The notes below the pieces were generated by a model, which was not told where the DNA came from, did not search any database, and worked only from the letters and a program-made list of their open reading frames with translations. Shown here in pieces: positions 11,794 to 39,894 of a stretch of DNA of 64,000 bases. Position 1 is the stretch's first letter; every line of letters begins with the position of its first letter. This DNA is from Sphingobacteriales bacterium JAD_PAG50586_3 (GTDB taxonomy: Bacteria > Bacteroidota > Bacteroidia > CAMBQF01): contig CP096135.1 in the NCBI GenBank assembly GCA_023213195.1, forward strand, positions 2,538,842-2,602,841, written 5' to 3'. The position numbers and the translations under genes are program-made.

Positions 11794-13923
11794 GTGAAAG
11801 TAGCAACCACCACATCAGTAAAAGCCATAATTATATCTGGCTTAATGTTCTTTTTGCTAATACGGCAAACGCCCAGTTGGTAAGTTTAAACTTAGATGGT
11901 TCGGCCCCCAACACCAATGCCCAGCTCGATATTAAATCGACAGGCTTGCAAGGTAAGGGCCTCTTAATTCCGCGTATGACAGAGGCACAACGTACCTCTA
12001 ACTTATCAGTTATAGGCGGTTTGGTAAACCTATTAGGCCAGCTACATGGCGGCCCTGCTCAAGGTTTACTTGTTTATCAAACAGATGGGGCACAAGGCTT
12101 CTATTACAACACCAGTACAACATCAACCCCCAGTTGGCAATATTTAGCGCCAAACGGTTCAGGTTCTGCCGGTCCAACAGGACCAACAGGAGCTGCCGGT
12201 GCTACAGGAGCTGCCGGTGTTGCTGAGGCTTGGCTAACAGGCTCGGGCGCACCTACAGGTGGTCAGGGCATTGTTGGCGATTGGTACTTCCGTACATCAA
12301 ACAGCCAGATACTTGAAAAAACAGGTAGCACTACCTGGACCAGCCGTGCTACCATTACAGGTGCAACTGGCGCAACAGGTCCAACTGGTGCAGCCGGTGC
12401 CGCAGGAGCAGCGGGTTCTGCCGGGGCTACAGGCCCTACAGGTGCTGCGGGTGCTTCTTCTGCCTGGTATAGTGGCAATGGCAACGTTGGTAATGGACAA
12501 TATAATGTTGGCGATTGGTACCTACGCACAAACACTGGCGATGTGTTTGAAAAAACAGGCAGCTTGCAGTGGACCTTGCGCATGAATATTATGGGACCAA
12601 CCGGACCTACAGGTTCTGGTGGCTCTGGCAGCGGTTGGGCTTTAACAGGCAACGCAGCGTCTAGCGGTAACTTTTTAGGCACTACAAATTCACAACCCCT
12701 ATTGTTTAAAGTAAACAATACTACTGCGGGCTATCTTGGCTCGTCAGACTATAACGCATTTTTTGGCCCTGCTGTAGAATATAGCGGTGGCGGCACCTAC
12801 AATACAGGTATTGGTTACGATGCTACTATATATGGTTCTATAACACACTCTATTGCTATTGGTAGCGGTGCGCAGGTACAACCAGGCAGCGGCAGTACAG
12901 AAGATATTGCCATTGGCAAAGGCGCAAATGTAACCGGTGGTAGCGCGTTCTCATATTCATTAGCCATTGGTTCTGCTGCACAAGTGCAGGCAAGCAATGG
13001 TATTGCTATAGGAAAAAGTGCCAACGTAAACACCCAATACGGTATGGCTATTGGCGATGGTGCCACAGGCACAAAGCAACAACGCTGGCATGGCTATTGG
13101 TCGTAGCAGTTATGTAAACGTTGCCGATGGTATTGCCATTGGAACATCAGCACAATCGCAGGGTACCGGTGCTATTGTAATTGGTAAAAGTGCATATTCT
13201 AATAGTGTTGATGCAATTAGTATAGGTGTGTCGGCACAGGCACAGGGTACCAACTCTATTGCACTTGGCGAAGGGGCCAGTGTAAACCAAACCAGTGCAA
13301 TTGCTATTGGTAGTGGCACAGGTAGTAACACAACACAGGCACAAGGGCAATATTCTATTGCTTTAGGTTACAGAGCTTATACCAGCGCAACAGATGCTAT
13401 TGCCATAGGCGACTATGCCCGTGCACAAGGGGCCAATGCCTTAGCTATTGGTGCTAATACATACAATGGCAACGCAAATACCATATTAATTGGTAACTCT
13501 ACCCATACTACTGTAAACTTAAACGGTTCAACATCTACCAGCTATGCTTTGCAGGTAGGTACAAGCAGCAGCAATGGTAATGGCGCATACCTTACCAAAG
13601 GTGGTGTGTGGACCAACGCATCAGATATTAACTTAAAAGAAGATTTTGTTTCTCTTGATGGTAATGAGATATTAAATAAAGTAGCCGACCTTGATATTAC
13701 AAAATGGAGGTATAAAGGAACGGACGAATACCACATTGGCCCAATGGCACAAGATTTTTACTCTGCATTTAATGTAGGTAACGATGATAAGCGTATAAGC
13801 AGCATAGACCCTAGCGGCGTAGCATTGGTAGCTATACAAGCGCTTAATGATAAAGTTGAACAACAACAAAAAACTATTGATGTACTGCTTAAGCAATTAA
13901 CAGATTTACAACAAAAACAATAG
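11794..13923 (+). CDS. Collagen-like fibre protein with YadA-head-like repeats and S74 chaperone tail (frames broken near 11865 and 13073)
   Basis: Start is taken as GTG at 11794, giving a signal peptide (SVKAIIISGLMFFLL) that, with one base added near CTAATACGG, runs into NTANAQLVSLNLDG. Domains in order: a conserved ~115-residue N-terminal module; G-x-y collagen repeats (GPTGPTGAAGATGAAG) interrupted by two ~45-residue W-L/Y-x-G...VGDWYxRT...W modules; a long run of ~14-residue YadA-head-type repeats (SIAIGSGAQV, IAIGKGANV, MAIGDGAT and others) forming a left-handed beta-roll in known trimeric adhesins; and at the C-terminus an S74 intramolecular chaperone domain (DINLKEDFVSL ... YHIGPMAQDF) with a terminal coiled coil. 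One extra G at ACAGGCAC near 13067-13069 causes the break at 13106. All pieces are trimer-forming, so a trimeric surface fibre that self-trims its chaperone is inferred. Confidence 0.82.
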
Positions 13924-14243
13924 TGTTCATGATTAATCTGCCGGATGGATTGTTAAGTTCAATCCGTCCGGTATTTTTAATGGCTTGTTTAAAAAACTAA
14001 TACTGTCTATATAAAGCCATTATCACAAATATTAATTAGCTGCTTACATTGCCCTTACATTATTCTAAAACAATATTTACTTTCTGAATGCCCTATTAAT
14101 AAAGGTTTTCTTCCTTTGCAGAGTTGTTTTTAATCAAGCAAACACCTACAATTCTTACCCGCGTAACGCACGCCCGTTTGTTGGCTATACAAGTTAATCA
14201 GCACAAATAATTTTACCCCTGATAAACAGCCAACCAACACAAA
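13924..14243. other. Intergenic region between first and second collagen-like genes
   Basis: 320 bases. It holds the terminator at 13940-13978, CCTTACA at 14053-14059 and TAATTTTA at 14208-14215, the same two elements in the same order and spacing as before the other collagen-like genes. No gene is supported. Confidence 0.55.
13940..13978 (+). terminator. Rho-independent terminator
   Basis: CCGGATGGATTG / CAATCCGTCCGG with one T-G wobble and loop TTAAGTT, then TATTTTT. It lies 19 bases after the stop of the YadA/S74 gene. Confidence 0.75.
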
Positions 14244-16652
14244 ATGAAAACCACATTAACTTTAAAACTTGTTTTTACAACAGCGTTGCTACTAACGCTT
14301 GTACAAACAAAGGCCCAATTGGTAAGTTTGAACCTGGATGGGTCGGCCCCTAACACCAATGCCCAGCTCGATATTAAATCAACTGGCTTACAAGGCAAGG
14401 GCCTTTTAATTCCGCGTATGACAGAGGCACAACGTACCTCTAACTTATCAGTTATAGGCGGTTTGGTAAATCTATTGGGCCAGCTACACGGTGGCCCTGC
14501 GCAAGGTTTACTTGTTTACCAGACAGATGGTGCCCAAGGCTTCTATTACAACACAAGCACTACATCAACCCCCAGTTGGCAATATTTAGCGCCAAACGGT
14601 TCAGGCTCAGCAGGCCCTACAGGTCCTACAGGTGCTGCAGGTATTGCCGAGGTTTGGTTAACAGGCTCGGGCGCGCCCACAGGCGGCCAGGGCAATGTTG
14701 GCGATTGGTACTTCCGCACATCAAACAGCCAGATACTTGAAAAAACAGCAGGTTCAACATGGACCAGCCGTGCTACTATAACAGGTGCAACGGGAGCTAC
14801 AGGTGCCGCTGGTTCAAATGGTTCAGCAGGAGCAACAGGTCCAACTGGCGCTGCTGGTTCAAATGGTTCAGCGGGAGCAACAGGTCCAACTGGCGCTGCC
14901 GGTGCAGTTGGTGCAACAGGTATTGCCGAAGTTTGGTTAACAGGTTCTACGGCACCTACAGGTGGCCAGGGTTCTGTTGGCGATTGGTACTTCCGCACAT
15001 CAAACAACGAGATTTTAGAAAAAACAGCAGGTTCTACATGGACTAGCCGTGCTACTATAACAGGTGCAACGGGAGCTACAGGTGCCGCTGGTTCAAATGG
15101 ATCAGCGGGAGCAACAGGCCCAACAGGCGCTGCAGGTGCAGTTGGTGCAACTGGTATTGCCGAGGTTTGGTTAACAGGCTCGGGCGCACCTACAGGTGGC
15201 CAGGGTAATGTTGGCGATTGGTACTTCCGCACATCAAACAACGAGATATTAGAAAAAACAGCAGGCACAACTTGGACCAGTCGTGCTACCCTTGCAGGTG
15301 CAACGGGTGCTACAGGCCCTGCCGGTGCTGCAGGTGCAGATGGGGCCACAGGAGCATCTTCGGCTTGGTATAGTGGTAATGGCAACGTAGGCAATGGGCA
15401 ATACAATGTTGGTGATTGGTATTTACGCACCAGTAATGGCGATGTGTTTGAAAAAACAGGCAACCTGCAATGGACATTGCGCATGAACATTATGGGCCCA
15501 ACAGGTCCAACAGGCCCGGGTGGCTCTGGCAGTGGCTGGGGCTTAACAGGTAATTCATCTACCAACCCCGGTACTAACTTTATTGGTACTACAGATAATA
15601 AAGATTTTGTAGTTAAAACAAACGGAACAGAACGGATGCGTATACTATCTGATGGTAAAATTGGTATAGGAACAACTTCGCCCACCAAGGCACTTGATGT
15701 TGTGTTAAACTCATCGGGTACCAATGTGGTAAATATTAGAAATACCAATGCAGCAGGGTATTCTTCTATTGATTATTTTGACCATACCGGTAACCAAATG
15801 TGTAATGTGGGTTATTCAAACTCATCGGCAGGTGCTTATGCAGGTACTATGTATTTTGCTACTAATGCTGATGTTGATATGACCTGGGCTCATAATAATA
15901 CAGAAGTAATGCGTTTGGCAACAGGTGGAATGCTGGGTATAGGTACATCTAGCCCAAGCGAGAAACTAGATGTTATAGGCCACATTAAAGCAGGTGCAAC
16001 TACTGACCAGGAAGGCGGCCAATTTATGTTGGCTGAACCAAGTTTAGCAGGCACAGGTAGCTGGGTTATGGATAATTTCTTTTCGTATGACGGTGGCAAC
16101 AAATTACGTTTTTGGAACGACAGAACAGGAGTTAACCCAATTACTATCCTTGATAATGGCCATGTGGGTATTGGTTCATTTGATTGGAATGAGCAACCAT
16201 CAACAGACTTACATGTACAAGGTAGTGTTCGTATAGAAGATGGAACACAAGGAGCAGGTAAAGTACTTACTTCTGATGCTAATGGTAATGCTACTTGGGC
16301 AACGCCAAGCTCAAATGCGCCCAATATTTACTCATCTACCTCGCAAACTTTATCAGGAACATCAAACAATAACATAAGCTTTAGCTCTGCTGGTTATATT
16401 AAATTTAACAGTGGTAGCTCTAGCAACTTCTCTATTACAGGTTTTTCAGCTGGGGTTGACGGACAAATTTTGATTCTGCAAAACGTTGGCACAGGTAACA
16501 TGACTGTAAGAAACCAAAATAACGGTTCTAGTGCGTCAAACCGTATTGTAACCAACACCGGCTCAGATGTTGCAACCACTGGCACAGGTACCATAACATT
16601 AATTTACGATGGTACACAAAGCCGTTGGGTTGTAATAAGCGTAGTTCAATAA
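14244..16652 (+). CDS. Collagen-like repeat surface protein, second paralog
   Basis: 802 residues in one uninterrupted frame. Signal peptide about 1-25 (LVFTTALLLTLVQTKAQ). The next ~115 residues are essentially identical to the preceding paralog. Then come three nearly identical modules (IAEVWLTGS ... GDWYFRTSN ... EKTAG ... TSRATITG) separated by G-x-y collagen stretches such as GATGATGAAGSNGSAG, and a fourth variant module (SSAWYSGNGNVGNG). The C-terminal third has phage-tail-like segments GIGTTSPTKALDV and GIGTSSPSEKLDV and a beta-rich end. No T9SS tail is present, so the export route past the outer membrane is unclear. The S74 and YadA parts of its neighbour are missing. Role as a trimeric surface fibre is inferred. 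Confidence 0.85.
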   Translation: MKTTLTLKLVFTTALLLTLVQTKAQLVSLNLDGSAPNTNAQLDIKSTGLQGKGLLIPRMTEAQRTSNLSVIGGLVNLLGQLHGGPAQGLLVYQTDGAQGFYYNTSTTSTPSWQYLAPNGSGSAGPTGPTGAAGIAEVWLTGSGAPTGGQGNVGDWYFRTSNSQILEKTAGSTWTSRATITGATGATGAAGSNGSAGATGPTGAAGSNGSAGATGPTGAAGAVGATGIAEVWLTGSTAPTGGQGSVGDWYFRTSNNEILEKTAGSTWTSRATITGATGATGAAGSNGSAGATGPTGAAGAVGATGIAEVWLTGSGAPTGGQGNVGDWYFRTSNNEILEKTAGTTWTSRATLAGATGATGPAGAAGADGATGASSAWYSGNGNVGNGQYNVGDWYLRTSNGDVFEKTGNLQWTLRMNIMGPTGPTGPGGSGSGWGLTGNSSTNPGTNFIGTTDNKDFVVKTNGTERMRILSDGKIGIGTTSPTKALDVVLNSSGTNVVNIRNTNAAGYSSIDYFDHTGNQMCNVGYSNSSAGAYAGTMYFATNADVDMTWAHNNTEVMRLATGGMLGIGTSSPSEKLDVIGHIKAGATTDQEGGQFMLAEPSLAGTGSWVMDNFFSYDGGNKLRFWNDRTGVNPITILDNGHVGIGSFDWNEQPSTDLHVQGSVRIEDGTQGAGKVLTSDANGNATWATPSSNAPNIYSSTSQTLSGTSNNNISFSSAGYIKFNSGSSSNFSITGFSAGVDGQILILQNVGTGNMTVRNQNNGSSASNRIVTNTGSDVATTGTGTITLIYDGTQSRWVVISVVQ

Positions 16653-29911: not shown

Positions 29912-29945
29912 TCCCCCTCCCTTGGGGGAAGGTTTAGGGAGGGGT
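29912..29945. repeat. GC-rich palindromic repeat (subfamily 1), copy A
   Basis: Core CCCCCTCCCTTGGGGGAAGG followed by TTTAGGGAGGGG. It lies directly after the restored stop codon (29948) of the T9SS gene to its right and 13 bases before the start of the YD-repeat gene. Related copies are at 30041 and 37927. Confidence 0.7.
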
Positions 29946-29947
29946 GA

Positions 29948-30908
29948 TCATTCTTTTATAATCCTGATGCTATAACCATCAATATTACATAAATAAATAC
30001 CTGTAGGCAGGTGCGTTAAATCTACCGTTGCTTTAAAAGTCCCTCCCTTAAAGGGGAGGGATTTAGGGAGGGTATCACCTGCCCAAACGCATTATAAATT
30101 TTCAGTTGCTCTATAGGCTTACTGCTTTCAATAGTAAATATGCCATTGCTTGGGTTAGGGTAAGCTTTAATCGGTGTTATTGGTTTTTCGTTTATCCCAA
30201 CCTGGTTACATTCTATTAGTATAATATTATCTACCATGTAAGTAGCTCTATGGTCCCAACTTACACCGGATGGAAGAATAATTGTATTAATACTATCAGG
30301 CTCACTAAAGCTACCAATAAGCATATATTGTTCGCCACCCACGGCAGTAAAAAAGCCTGTATAATGTACCCAGTTTTCTTTGTCTGTTATAAATGTCCCC
30401 TTATATAATATTTGTGGAGAAGGAAAATTCTCTATAGGGTTAGGAGTATTTAAAACAATAAAATCTTTTACAAATAGTACTCCTATATCATCAATAGCTG
30501 TTTGGCAGCTATCGCATAAAGTAATATACATTGAGAAATAGTAGCATTGGGCACTATCCAAGGGTTTGAGCAGTTTATTTTGTGCTTGGTTTCGAAAAAA
30601 GAGTTTTCATTTTTATACGTTTCTAATGCTATAAATCCATCCCCATCATGTGGATATTGAAAGCATCCACCACCTGCAGGGTTATAGGGTACAGAACAAC
30701 AACCCGGATAGGTGTCGGCAAAATGACAAGCATTGCCATAAAAGTCCTTGTCTGTAGATAATTCCCAAAATGGAATAATAGCTGGTGTGCAAAAATTATC
30801 AAAGCATGGGCATTCAGTATATTCTTCAAAACTTGGATTTTGAACCAAATTCTGCCCCTTTACAACAAATGCAAAGCATAAGAATATATGTAGTAATGCT
30901 AACCTCAT
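29948..30908 (-). CDS. Secreted protein with T9SS sorting tail carrying an in-frame palindromic element (frame breaks at 30595-30600 and near 30055)
   Basis: Start taken as MRLALLHIFLCFAFVVKGQ at 30908, 10 bases after the stop of the upstream T9SS gene. The mature N-terminus NLVQNPSFEEYTECP is typical of Bacteroidota extracellular proteins and is followed by a jelly-roll-like region. Adding one A to the A6 run at 30595-30600 links SFF to RNQAQNKLLKPLDS. Near the end the sorting domain starts IKAYPNPSNGIFTIES and IYNAFGQV, is then interrupted by IPSLNPSPLREG encoded by the repeat at 30041-30073, and resumes one base out of frame as TFKATVDLTHLPTGIYLCN, ending at 29948. Read literally it stops at 30022. 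It lies downstream of another T9SS gene, same strand. Confidence 0.75.
30041..30073. repeat. GC-rich palindromic repeat (subfamily 1), copy B, inside a coding region
   Basis: CCCTCCCTTAAAGGGGAGGG followed by ATTTAGGGAGGG. It is embedded in the T9SS tail of the gene at 29948-30908 and translated there as PSLNPSPLREG. Copies A (29912) and C (37927) lie between genes. Confidence 0.75.
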
Positions 30909-32507: not shown

Positions 32508-32587
32508 AAGCCTTGAACTTAGTAAATATTTACTTGTTATTGAGTTCTAAGTATTATTTTTCATTTTTCAATTTTCATTTTTCGTTT

Positions 32588-34395
32588 ATGGTAACGCCGG
32601 AACATTTACAGCTACAGTTGAGGGCGTTGCCCGGCAACCCCGGTGTATATCAGTTTTTTGATGTGGACGGCAGGCTGCTATACGTGGGTAAGGCCAAAAA
32701 CCTGAAAAAGAGAGTATCGTCGTATTTTAATAAGGAGCATTATAGCGGGCGCACGGCGCTAATGGTATCGCGCATAAACGATATTAAGTACATTGTTACC
32801 AATACCGATTTAGATGCGCTGTTGCTGGAAAACAACCTGATAAAAACCAATAAGCCCAAGTATAATGTAGAGCTTAAGGATGATAAAAGCTACCCATCTA
32901 TCTGCATTAAAAATGAGCGTTTCCCAGGGTGTTCCCCACCCGCAGGTTGATAAAAGACGGGTCGCAATATTTTGGCCCCTATGCATCGGTAAGCATGATG
33001 CACTCTGTGTTAGACCTTATCCGCAGCCTGTATAAAATACGCACCTGCAACCTTAACCTATCTCCAGACAATATAAACGCGGGCAAGTTTAAAGTGTGCC
33101 TTGAATACCATATACACAACTGCAAAGGCCCTTGCGTGGCAAAAGAAACAGAAGAAGAATACAACGATACCATTGCCCAAGTGCGCGAGATTATAAAAGG
33201 GAACATTAGCAGCGTTACCCGCCGCCTTAGCGACCAAATGATTGAGCATGCTGCCAACCTAGAGTTTGAGCAGGCACAGCAACTAAAGGTAAAACTGGAG
33301 CAACTGGAACGTTTCAAAATCAAGTCTACTGTTGTTAGCCAGTTGATTAACGATGTAGAGGTGTATACTATTGAAACTGATGATAACCACGGCTTTGTAA
33401 ACTTTATGAAGGTGGTAAACGGCTCTGTTATACAAGGCCATACCTTCGAAATGAAGAAAGGCATGGAAGAAACCCCAAAGGAACTTTTAGAGCTGGGTAT
33501 TGCGGAGATTAAAAACCTGTTCAACACCAAATCAAAAGAAATATTAGTGCCTTTTGAAGTAGATTTGGAGATAGAAGGCAGCGAATTTATTATCCCCCAA
33601 CGGGGCGATAAAAAGAAGCTGATGGAGCTGTCGTTGCGCAATGTGCAGGCCTATATAAAAGACCGTAACAAGCAACTGGAACTGGTAGACCCCGACCGCC
33701 ATACCAAGCGGATATTGGAAACCATGAAAAAGGATTTGCGCCTTAGCGAGGTGCCTGTGCATATAGAGTGCTTTGATAACTCTAACATACAAGGTGCTTT
33801 TCCTGTAGCGGCTATGACGGTGTTTAAAAACGCTAAGCCCAGTAAAAAAGACTACCGCCACTTTAACATAAAAACGGTAGAAGGCCCCAACGATTTTGCA
33901 TCTATGGAAGAGATTATCTACCGCCGCTATAAACGTGTGTTAGATGAAGGATTGGATATGCCGCAACTTATTGTTATTGATGGTGGCAAGGGGCAGTTAA
34001 GTTCAGCTTTAACTAGTTTAGAACTGCTGGGTTTGCGTGGCAAGGTGGGTATAATAGGTATTGCCAAAAAACTGGAAGAGATTTACTTTCCCGGCGACCC
34101 GTACCCTATGTATATTGATAAACGGTCGGAGAGTTTGCGCATTATTCAACAGATACGTGATGAAGCCCACAGGTTTGGCATTACCCACCACCGTAAAAAA
34201 CGCAGTAAAGAAACTATTACCACAGAGCTGCTAAATATACCGGGGATAGGCGATAAGATAGCCAACGATTTGCTTAATAAATTTAAATCAGTTAAGCGGA
34301 TAAAAGAAACCCCGTTGGCAGAAATTGAAAAAGAAATTGGCCCCGCAAAAGCCAAACTCATCTTTGATTACTTCGAGAAGCAGAAAGGTGTTTAA
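32588..34395 (+). CDS. uvrC: Excinuclease ABC subunit C (frame broken near 32925)
   Basis: About 602 residues after joining, normal for UvrC. The ATG at 32588 begins the GIY-YIG nuclease: NPGVYQFFDVDGRLLYVGKA, with KNLKKRVSSYF. The first frame ends at 32950; restoring one base in TTCCCAGGGTG gives RFPRVFPTRRLIKDG and continues to 34395. Then follow the UVR motif (AANLEFEQAQQLKVKLEQLE), the UvrC RNase H-like domain (HIECFDNSNIQGAFPVAAM, VIDGGKGQL) and the C-terminal helix-hairpin-helix pair (IPGIGDKIANDLLNKFKS). It makes the two incisions in nucleotide excision repair with UvrAB. Confidence 0.93.
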
Positions 34396-36461: not shown

Positions 36462-36486
36462 TTTTACGATAAGGGAAAGGTTGATT

Positions 36487-36523
36487 GTCATTCCTGCGAA
36501 AGCAGGAATCTCACCATGCGGTA
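36487..36523. repeat. REP-like element, GTCATTCC type, copy 1
   Basis: Hairpin ATTCCTGC / GCAGGAAT with loop GAAA, then CTCACCATGCGGTA. A second copy with compensating changes in the stem is at 39858. Confidence 0.7.
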
Positions 36524-37926: not shown

Positions 37927-37960
37927 CCCTCCCCTTTAAGGGGGAGGGTTAGGGAGGGGG
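37927..37960. repeat. GC-rich palindromic repeat (subfamily 1), copy C
   Basis: CCCTCCCCTTTAAGGGGGAG followed by GGTTAGGGAGGGGG. It lies between the divergent rarA and rRNA methyltransferase genes. Confidence 0.7.
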
Positions 37961-38061: not shown

Positions 38062-39269
38062 GTGCACGATAAGTTACACCGCAATTTAGTAATAGCTGTT
38101 GTTGAGGCATTGGCTGAGATTTTTATAGAAAACCGCTATGCCGATAAGGTTATAGAACGCACCCTGGCTGCCGACCCGCGCCGTGGTTCGCGCGACCGTG
38201 CCTTTATTGCCGATACCGTTTACAGCCTTGTACGCTGGTGGCGCTTAACGGGTTTTTATGCCAATGTTGATGATAAGAACGATGTAGACTCTATCTGGCG
38301 CAGGGTTACTGTGTGGTTTCAGGAATCGAACTACAAGCTGCCAGATTGGTTGCAGGAGTATGAGGTGAAAGAGTCTATATTGGAAAAACGCAGGCAAATG
38401 GCATCAGAAAAAAGGCCATTTCGCATAGCATACCCGATTGGTTAGAGCAACTGGGTAAACAGTATTTTAATGAGGAAAAGTGGAACACCGAAATGGAAAG
38501 CCTAAACGAGCGTGCCGAACTGGTTATCCGTGTTAACACCCTTAAAATTACTCGCCCTAAATTAAAGGCCCTTTTAGAAACACACGATATTGAATGCCTA
38601 ACCAGCGGTGAGTTTCCTGATGCTATGCTGGTGGAACGCAAAGGCAACCTCTTTGCCATGCAGGAGTTTAAAGACGGTTTGTTTGAGGTGCAAGATGCAG
38701 GTTCGCAGTCTATAGCCCCATTTCTACGTGTAGAGCCGGGCATGCGGGTTATTGATGCCTGTGCCGGCGCCGGAGGCAAAACGCTTCACTTGGCAGCTTT
38801 AATGCAGGGCAAGGGCCGTATAGTGTCTATGGATATTGAAGACTTTAAGTTGAATGAACTAAAACGCCGCGCCCGCCGCAACGGGGTGCCCAATATTGAA
38901 ACCCGTTTAATTGAAGGTGCTAAAACCATTAAACGTTTAGCTGAGAGTGCAGACAGGCTGTTGCTTGATGTACCATGCTCGGGTTTGGGTGTTATACGTC
39001 GCAACCCCGATGCAAAGTGGAAGCTAAACCCCGAATTTATAGAGCGTGTGCAACAAACACAGGCAGAGATTTTAAGCACCTACCCAACCATGCTTAAACC
39101 TGGCGGATTGATGGTATACGCTACATGCAGCATATTACCCGTTGAGAATGAAAACCAGGTAGAGAAATTTCTACAGGCCAACCCTAATTTCGAATTGTTA
39201 GAAGATAAGCACGTATGGCCATCAGAAGGGTTTGATGGTTTTTACATGGCGTTAATTAAAAAGAATTAA
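38062..39269 (+). CDS. rsmB: 16S rRNA m5C methyltransferase, RsmB/NOL1-NOP2-Sun family (frame broken at 38408-38413)
   Basis: About 402 residues. An N-terminal NusB-like helical domain (RNLVIAVVEALAEIFIENRY ... RGSRDRAFIADTVYSLVRWW) is followed by the SAM domain DACAGAGGKTLHLAALM, the first active cysteine in LLDVPCSGLGVIRRNPDAKW and the second in ATCSILPVENE. A seventh A in the A6 run at 38408-38413 gives SEKKAISHSIPDWLEQLG and joins the frames. RsmB methylates C967 of 16S rRNA (E. coli numbering); the exact target here is inferred. GTG start after a consensus promoter. Confidence 0.87.
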
Positions 39270-39352: not shown

Positions 39353-39847
39353 ATGTTAAAGTTAGTCCCCGCCACTACAGCCGATACCCAGACCATCCAC
39401 GATATTGCAGAGCGTGTATGGAGCAAGCATTATATCCCCAACATAATAACCCAAGACCAAATGGATTATATGATGGAGTGGATGTATTCGGCCAATAGCT
39501 TAGCAAAGCAAATGGCAGAGGACGCCCACTTTTTTATGATGGATTATAAAGGGCAAACGGTGGGATATATTTCTATTAACGATAACGATGGCGACCTGTT
39601 CCTTAACAAGTTTTATATAGATACCGAGTACCAACGATTGAACCTTGGCAGCAATGCTTTAGCCCTCGCATTATCCGAATTCCCTGGTGCTAAAACCATC
39701 CGCCTGCAAGTAAACCGCAAAAACTTTAAAGCCATAAACTTCTACTTTAAAAACGGTTTTACTATTGAAAAAGTTGAAGACTTCGACATAGGCAACAACT
39801 ACCTGATGGAAGATTATGTGATGTTAAAGAAGTTATACGAAAAATAA
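39353..39847 (+). CDS. GNAT family N-acetyltransferase
   Basis: 164 residues. N-terminal LVPATTADTQTIHDIAERVW, then motif A as NKFYIDTEYQRLNLGSNALAL and motif B as RLQVNRKNFKAINFYFKNGF, which define the fold. Substrate unknown; the form resembles the spermidine/small-amine group. It ends 10 bases before a REP-like element. Confidence 0.85.
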   Translation: MLKLVPATTADTQTIHDIAERVWSKHYIPNIITQDQMDYMMEWMYSANSLAKQMAEDAHFFMMDYKGQTVGYISINDNDGDLFLNKFYIDTEYQRLNLGSNALALALSEFPGAKTIRLQVNRKNFKAINFYFKNGFTIEKVEDFDIGNNYLMEDYVMLKKLYEK

Positions 39848-39857
39848 AAAGGTTAAC

Positions 39858-39894
39858 GTCATTCCCGCGCAGGCGGGAATCTCACCAAGCGGTA
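39858..39894. repeat. REP-like element, GTCATTCC type, copy 2
   Basis: Hairpin ATTCCCGC / GCGGGAAT, then CTCACCAAGCGGTA. Compared with copy 1 at 36487 both stem arms changed together (T to C, A to G), which is what a selected hairpin would show. Confidence 0.7.

Follow-up and report, generated by a model that had tools for sequence, protein, structure and literature searches.

The window, the 64,000-nt stretch of DNA analysed here, contains a gene for a secreted protein that carries a T9SS sorting tail at its C-terminus, and inside this gene lies a short palindromic element that recurs twice in the surrounding sequence.

29948..30908, minus strand: host gene, coding for this T9SS-tailed secreted protein; two frame breaks in the assembly
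30041-30072: palindromic element in the host gene, 32 bp, CCCTCCCTTAAAGGGGAGGGATTTAGGGAGGG, zero mismatches
30037..30072, plus strand: the element with its flank, reading AAGT, then the hairpin CCCTCCC-TTAAAG-GGGAGGG, then the tail ATTTAGGGAGGG
29913..29944, plus strand: diverged second copy, same orientation, extragenic, 3 bases past the host-gene stop (29948-29950)
37927..37960, plus strand: third copy, intergenic; 37927-37958 matches CCCTCCCTTAAAGGGGAGGGATTTAGGGAGGG with 3 mismatches
30595-30600: A6 run; the first, upstream frame break of the host gene lies in it or close by

The element in a T9SS-tailed gene

The original prediction of a repeat at 30041 in a T9SS-tailed gene, with further copies nearby, is borne out by an exact match to a sequence for which dinucleotide shuffles of the window give 0.00 chance matches. 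It had also proposed counting the palindrome genome-wide, and the pattern CCCTCCC-N3..12-GGGAGGG indeed occurs 42 times in the window's genome (G000; 4.16 Mb, single contig), mostly in intergenic positions, against 0 for a reversed-pattern control in the same genome. Aligned copies consist of a hairpin with a tail on one side only (AAG-hairpin-TTTGGGAGGGGTC) and end in GACC/AGCC-type sequence. An Rfam scan around the window element returned no known RNA family, relaxed thresholds included.

On the strand of the host gene, the element translates as PSLNPSPLREG. The claim that it splits a sorting tail, both halves of which match the domain, stands in part: the half that precedes it scores 25 bits against Por_Secre_tail (profile positions 2-34 of 75), slightly below the 27-bit cut-off, and the second half, TFKATVDLTHLPTGIYLCNIDGYSIRIIKE up to the stop, continues after the element in a different frame. 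Both halves of the gene retain good coding sequence. The nearest paralogue in the same genome (L028; 335 aa, 61% identical) is unbroken and element-free, and its loop at the element site has 11 residues compared to 16 in the host gene. Measured from YPNP to GxY, the joined host tail spans 57 aa, and the tails of paralogues and one neighbour span 53, 54, 54, 58, 61 and 61 aa (six tails, each read directly); taking 11 residues off the host tail would leave 46 aa. Because 57 aa falls within this range of 53-61 aa, the element probably replaced loop residues rather than adding eleven, and the notion of about 11 extra residues has to be given up.

A related genome has two unbroken T9SS genes, L102 and L084, with an in-frame copy each; in both, Por_Secre_tail matches over its full length (48.7 and 41.6 bits, respectively), with the copy inside the match. 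They are the clean counterpart of the window case. In relatives, the palindrome lies in frame inside unrelated ORFs; in the window gene it is one base out.

The frame break after the element had been predicted and is seen; what the prediction lacked is a second break upstream, near the A6 run, which alignment with the paralogue places before RNQAQNKLLKPL. Genes of the same assembly that are free of the element serve as controls.

32513..34395, plus strand: uvrC, element-free, frameshift-split near 32930; assembly-indel control
38062..39269, plus strand: rsmB/NOL1-type RNA methyltransferase, element-free, frameshift-split near 38400-38500; second assembly-indel control

An element-free aminotransferase in the window is frameshift-split too, as are the IleRS (G000:C1:286254-289087) and LeuRS (G000:C1:373962-376801) of the window's genome, while the LeuRS of the congener G001 is unbroken. 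Because LeuRS, IleRS and uvrC are also broken in this assembly, the break at the window copy is probably an assembly indel, the simplest reading being a long-read assembly rich in them. The breakage of element-free and essential genes favours the earlier guess of a homopolymer error. A loss of secretion, suggested as the other outcome, finds no support, as LeuRS, IleRS, uvrC and rsmB have one-base breaks as well and LeuRS is intact in a congener. All in-gene copies examined in the window's genome (T9SS, P-type ATPase, methyltransferase, aroE, LeuRS) coincide with a frame break or lie close to one, as homopolymer errors in C/G runs would produce, although real damage would fit as well. In aroE (L050; G000:C1:3467152), a palindrome composite lies between GAVNTILI and QLIGYNTDVLGF, with stops in the assembled frames.

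DUF559 elements with hairpin ends

In relatives with short-read genomes, copies lie in frame in genes for IleRS, aspartokinase, SerA, TilS, SufS, UvrA (two copies), GpmI, IspH, transketolase, MetRS and in T9SS tails. In IleRS, the insertion context reads PFENKN, followed by LFPLPFGEGKGGAS and FPADFIAEGVDQTRGW, and alignment of palindrome-containing IleRS with solved IleRS from the PDB makes the extra residues visible. Of the 59 copies in one such genome (G059), 30 fall within uninterrupted ORFs, compared to 80% of random positions.

In the LeuRS of G001, the palindrome adjoins a DUF559 domain. DUF559 is present in all 11 element-rich genomes that were examined; of five element-poor genomes, two have it, in one case as a weak match. 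Of 49 DUF559 loci, 42 have a flanking pyrimidine-arm hairpin, 25 of them one on each side, and 7 have no recognisable hairpin; no control window (0 of 900) and no control ORF (0 of 106) has hairpins on both sides. Within an element, the two ends form inverted repeats (17.8, versus 8.1 for shuffled pairs with a maximum of 9.5) and resemble each other far more than they resemble the ends of different elements. Full DUF559 elements thus have terminal inverted repeats, with outer ends like AGCCCC...GGGGCT. Several reading frames through the hairpin ends are free of stops and code for linkers rich in Pro and Gly (PSPxGRE, VLPxGEDLGGA). The window copy corresponds to one end, of the right-end type, and not to a full element; over 34 aligned positions it shares 29 with the right end of the DUF559 element at G000:C1:1247159 in the window's genome. 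Its likely parent is an element with hairpin inverted repeats at its borders and a gene for a putative DUF559 nuclease between them.

The catalytic residues of DUF559 (E, D, ExDG, H) are invariant, also in copies fused to host proteins. An AlphaFold model of the domain (pLDDT 87) has as its closest structures 3hrl and the homing endonuclease I-Bth0305I (3r3p), with Vsr ranking lower, and a profile search agrees (3r3p, E=0.00019). Judged by residues and predicted fold, DUF559 is a putative nuclease of the Vsr/EDxHD type, with a fold homologous to that of I-Bth0305I. The AlphaFold model of a LeuRS-DUF559 fusion is too weak to build on (pLDDT 68, pTM 0.47, 18 rows): it shows no more than a folded DUF559 segment between linkers of low confidence.

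A fused-type DUF559, used as query against named genomes, returned more than 574 relatives. The best 80 of these, which were analysed, are all from Bacteroidota; 67 lie in frame within long ORFs, a rate biased by the fused copies from which the query was made, and in 55 a hairpin is present at either end. The majority of the genomes in this analysis are drafts. The host proteins include LeuRS (at two sites), IleRS, ValRS, MetH, RecG, MutS, RecJ, Acs, TsaB, RluA and a SpoIIE-type protein, and the carriers include the cultured strains Flavobacterium difficile, Maribacter luteus, Aequorivita todarodis, Winogradskyella sediminis and Pedobacter sp. Leaf194. DUF559 interrupts an individual Pfam domain in several of the hosts: the activation domain of MetH, AMP-binding, the DHH domain of RecJ, MutS_III and the Helicase_C domain of RecG. 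The whole insert is free of stops and in frame, with only short linkers beyond the ~107-aa DUF559. Intein families were absent from ten fused proteins, and Rfam scans of fused genes revealed no introns. A Flavo-1 RNA (RF01705) lies near a DUF559-carrying RecG gene (L200:748-848).

Insertion sites can be compared in occupied and empty states. One site in IleRS is empty in many genera (16 aa), contains only a palindrome in four genera with differing hairpins (23-32 aa), and carries DUF559 in eight taxa (150-188 aa). IleRS is filled in G059 and unfilled in the congener G095. The LeuRS site is occupied in the window's genome and in G001, where the DUF559-occupied LeuRS is the sole one found, and is empty in the congener G002. 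No clear target-site duplication emerges from the LeuRS and IleRS comparisons of empty and filled sites, and the inserts appear to replace loop bases. DUF559 sequences group by insertion site (13 changes versus 30.7 when shuffled), as expected under site-specific homing, although vertical descent could partly produce such clustering too. The LeuRS of G002 (L329), empty at the DUF559 site, has another long segment ahead of KMSKS (starting SCKARVILSASSLEKQFEIW).

Proposed origin and relation to known systems

Taken together, we consider the window repeat to be a short, nuclease-less copy of a Bacteroidota mobile element with hairpin ends, the full form of which encodes DUF559; the insertion would be in frame and unspliced, with the frame break most likely an assembly indel. 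We put the probability of this reading at a little over three in four. In the full element, hairpins would act as element-specific terminal inverted repeats around one reading frame, that of the DUF559 nuclease, and both full and short forms would be able to lie in frame in genes. Because the hairpin ends are stop-free and encode linkers, the host protein would be produced with the insert retained, usually in place of loop residues. The element's architecture, its in-frame and patchy occupancy and the homology of its nuclease are seen in the sequences; for its movement we propose the following: the nuclease, made alone or as part of the host protein, would cut element-free alleles or new target sites, and repair would then copy the element into the cut site. 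Short copies such as that in the window may arise via internal deletion or via mobilisation in trans. Once an element sits in an essential gene, its imprecise loss would be lethal. More broadly, we lean towards a phylum-wide class of unspliced, translated elements in Bacteroidota, in which DUF559 between coding palindromes would insert itself by homing, in frame, at conserved positions in essential enzymes and would give rise to short coding palindromes, a source of diversity in surface loops including those of T9SS tails.

A close likeness is with the Rickettsia palindromic elements (RPEs) and their Wolbachia counterparts, which are also short palindromes translated in frame in unrelated, often essential genes. 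We know of no nuclease-encoding partner for RPEs and, to our knowledge, no clear answer has been given since their discovery on how palindromes become translated in genes or what moves them. The elements described here differ in their occurrence in Bacteroidota, their C/T-arm hairpins, their AGCC/GACC-type ends and their nuclease-encoding full-length form. The original comparison with RPEs was right in kind, as a palindrome is read as protein in a T9SS domain, but incomplete in missing the DUF559 partner. The CGTC tag of RPE-4 and RPE-6 (PMC3733652) is absent from the aligned copies. Translated palindromes are not confined to Rickettsia: in-frame intragenic palindromes were already reported in Opitutus and Thauera (PMC3733652), a precedent that the original comparison missed. 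These intragenic GTAG/CGTC REPs are in-frame hairpins, present singly or as dimers in genes such as uvrA and reported as highest in Opitutus terrae and R. conorii (PMC3733652). The elements found here, in contrast, have no GTAG/CGTC tag and no RAYT at their ends, contain DUF559 instead, and are coding in about half of the copies in G059.

With I-Bth0305I (PDB 3r3p), an EDxHD homing endonuclease, DUF559 shares a homologous nuclease fold and a location in conserved genes. However, 3r3p is listed as the protein of a mobile intron, whereas DUF559 has no splicing partner, appears to be retained in the host protein and is bounded by hairpins. EDxHD nucleases are precedents for homing, but according to a review conserved genes are invaded in association with partners that self-splice (PMC3943268). 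Inteins likewise are nuclease-bearing, in-frame insertions at conserved sites of essential enzymes, but the DUF559 inserts lack a splicing domain and are too short to contain one. As in MITEs, the short copies have the ends of a longer, nuclease-encoding element; here, however, they would often be translated, and no clear target-site duplication was seen. Within the open-access literature, we found nothing tying DUF559 to palindromes or to in-frame insertion, nor the combination of palindromic coding ends with an unspliced nuclease, though absence there is no proof of novelty.

Translated palindromes would gain a visible partner, a small gene for a nuclease that shares their ends and is itself found in frame in LeuRS, IleRS, MetH, RecG and others, cultured strains included. 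If true, this would be the first nuclease partner for protein-coding palindromes. Confirmation would mean that homing nucleases can inhabit essential genes without an intron or intein, and that the proteins of a major phylum hold nuclease domains of selfish origin and hairpin-encoded loops, both of which annotation and structure prediction should recognise. It would also open the movement of the element to direct laboratory tests.

Alternative readings

The window copy could instead be an ordinary extragenic REP-like repeat that landed in a dispensable T9SS gene, now a pseudogene decaying with two real frameshifts. The two breaks in the gene as assembled, the numerous secreted T9SS paralogues of this genome (16 matches in G000) and the intergenic position of most of the 42 copies speak for this. 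We nevertheless regard it as unlikely, as good coding sequence is kept in both halves, element-free essential genes of the same assembly are similarly broken, and in-frame copies are frequent in short-read relatives, T9SS tails among them. If the DUF559-host fusions were ordinary functional domain fusions, immobile and unrelated to the short palindromes, conserved nuclease residues and DNA-acting hosts such as RecG, RecJ and MutS would be natural; yet the hosts are unrelated (aaRS, MetH, Acs, RluA, TsaB), DUF559 sits within single domains, the insert is bounded by hairpin inverted repeats, one genus has both empty and occupied sites, and the IleRS site is shared with short copies. This makes mere fusion a distinctly improbable account. 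Even harder to credit is that the insert is spliced out as an intein or intron, with nothing extra in the final protein. Introns and inteins are the usual vehicles of homing nucleases (PMC3943268) and favour conserved genes likewise, but the linkers beyond DUF559 are too short for a splicing domain, neither intein family nor intron was detected in the searches above, and the entire insert is in frame and stop-free.

Mobilisation as a REP/REPIN system by a RAYT (Y1 HUH) transposase would accord with the short hairpins, the inverted pairs, the many copies and the three Y1_Tnp matches in the window's genome. Nonetheless, element-free genomes carry Y1_Tnp too, the GTAG tag is absent at the hairpin foot of aligned copies, and none of 30 Y1_Tnp loci has the hairpin at its ends, so that RAYT was rejected as the mobiliser and this reading appears very improbable. 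At one of the 30 loci, hairpin copies lie ~0.9 kb off, inside aspartokinase.

Other repeats were noted as well. Two Y1_Tnp (RAYT-like) genes of the window's genome, L140 (G000:C1:1165340) and L155 (G000:C1:506454), are flanked by different inverted repeats (CCGGAGGGCCGATATGTCAATAG and TTAACCCCGCACTTTAGTGTGGGG, respectively), which are apparently separate REP systems. Within the window, a further REP-like family occurs at 36462-36523 and 39833-39894 (GTCATTCCYGCG..GCRGGAATCTCACC..GCGGTA, copies 76% identical), and 12157-15400 consists of tandem collagen-like GxxGxx triplet repeats, with 36 copies of a 54-nt unit.
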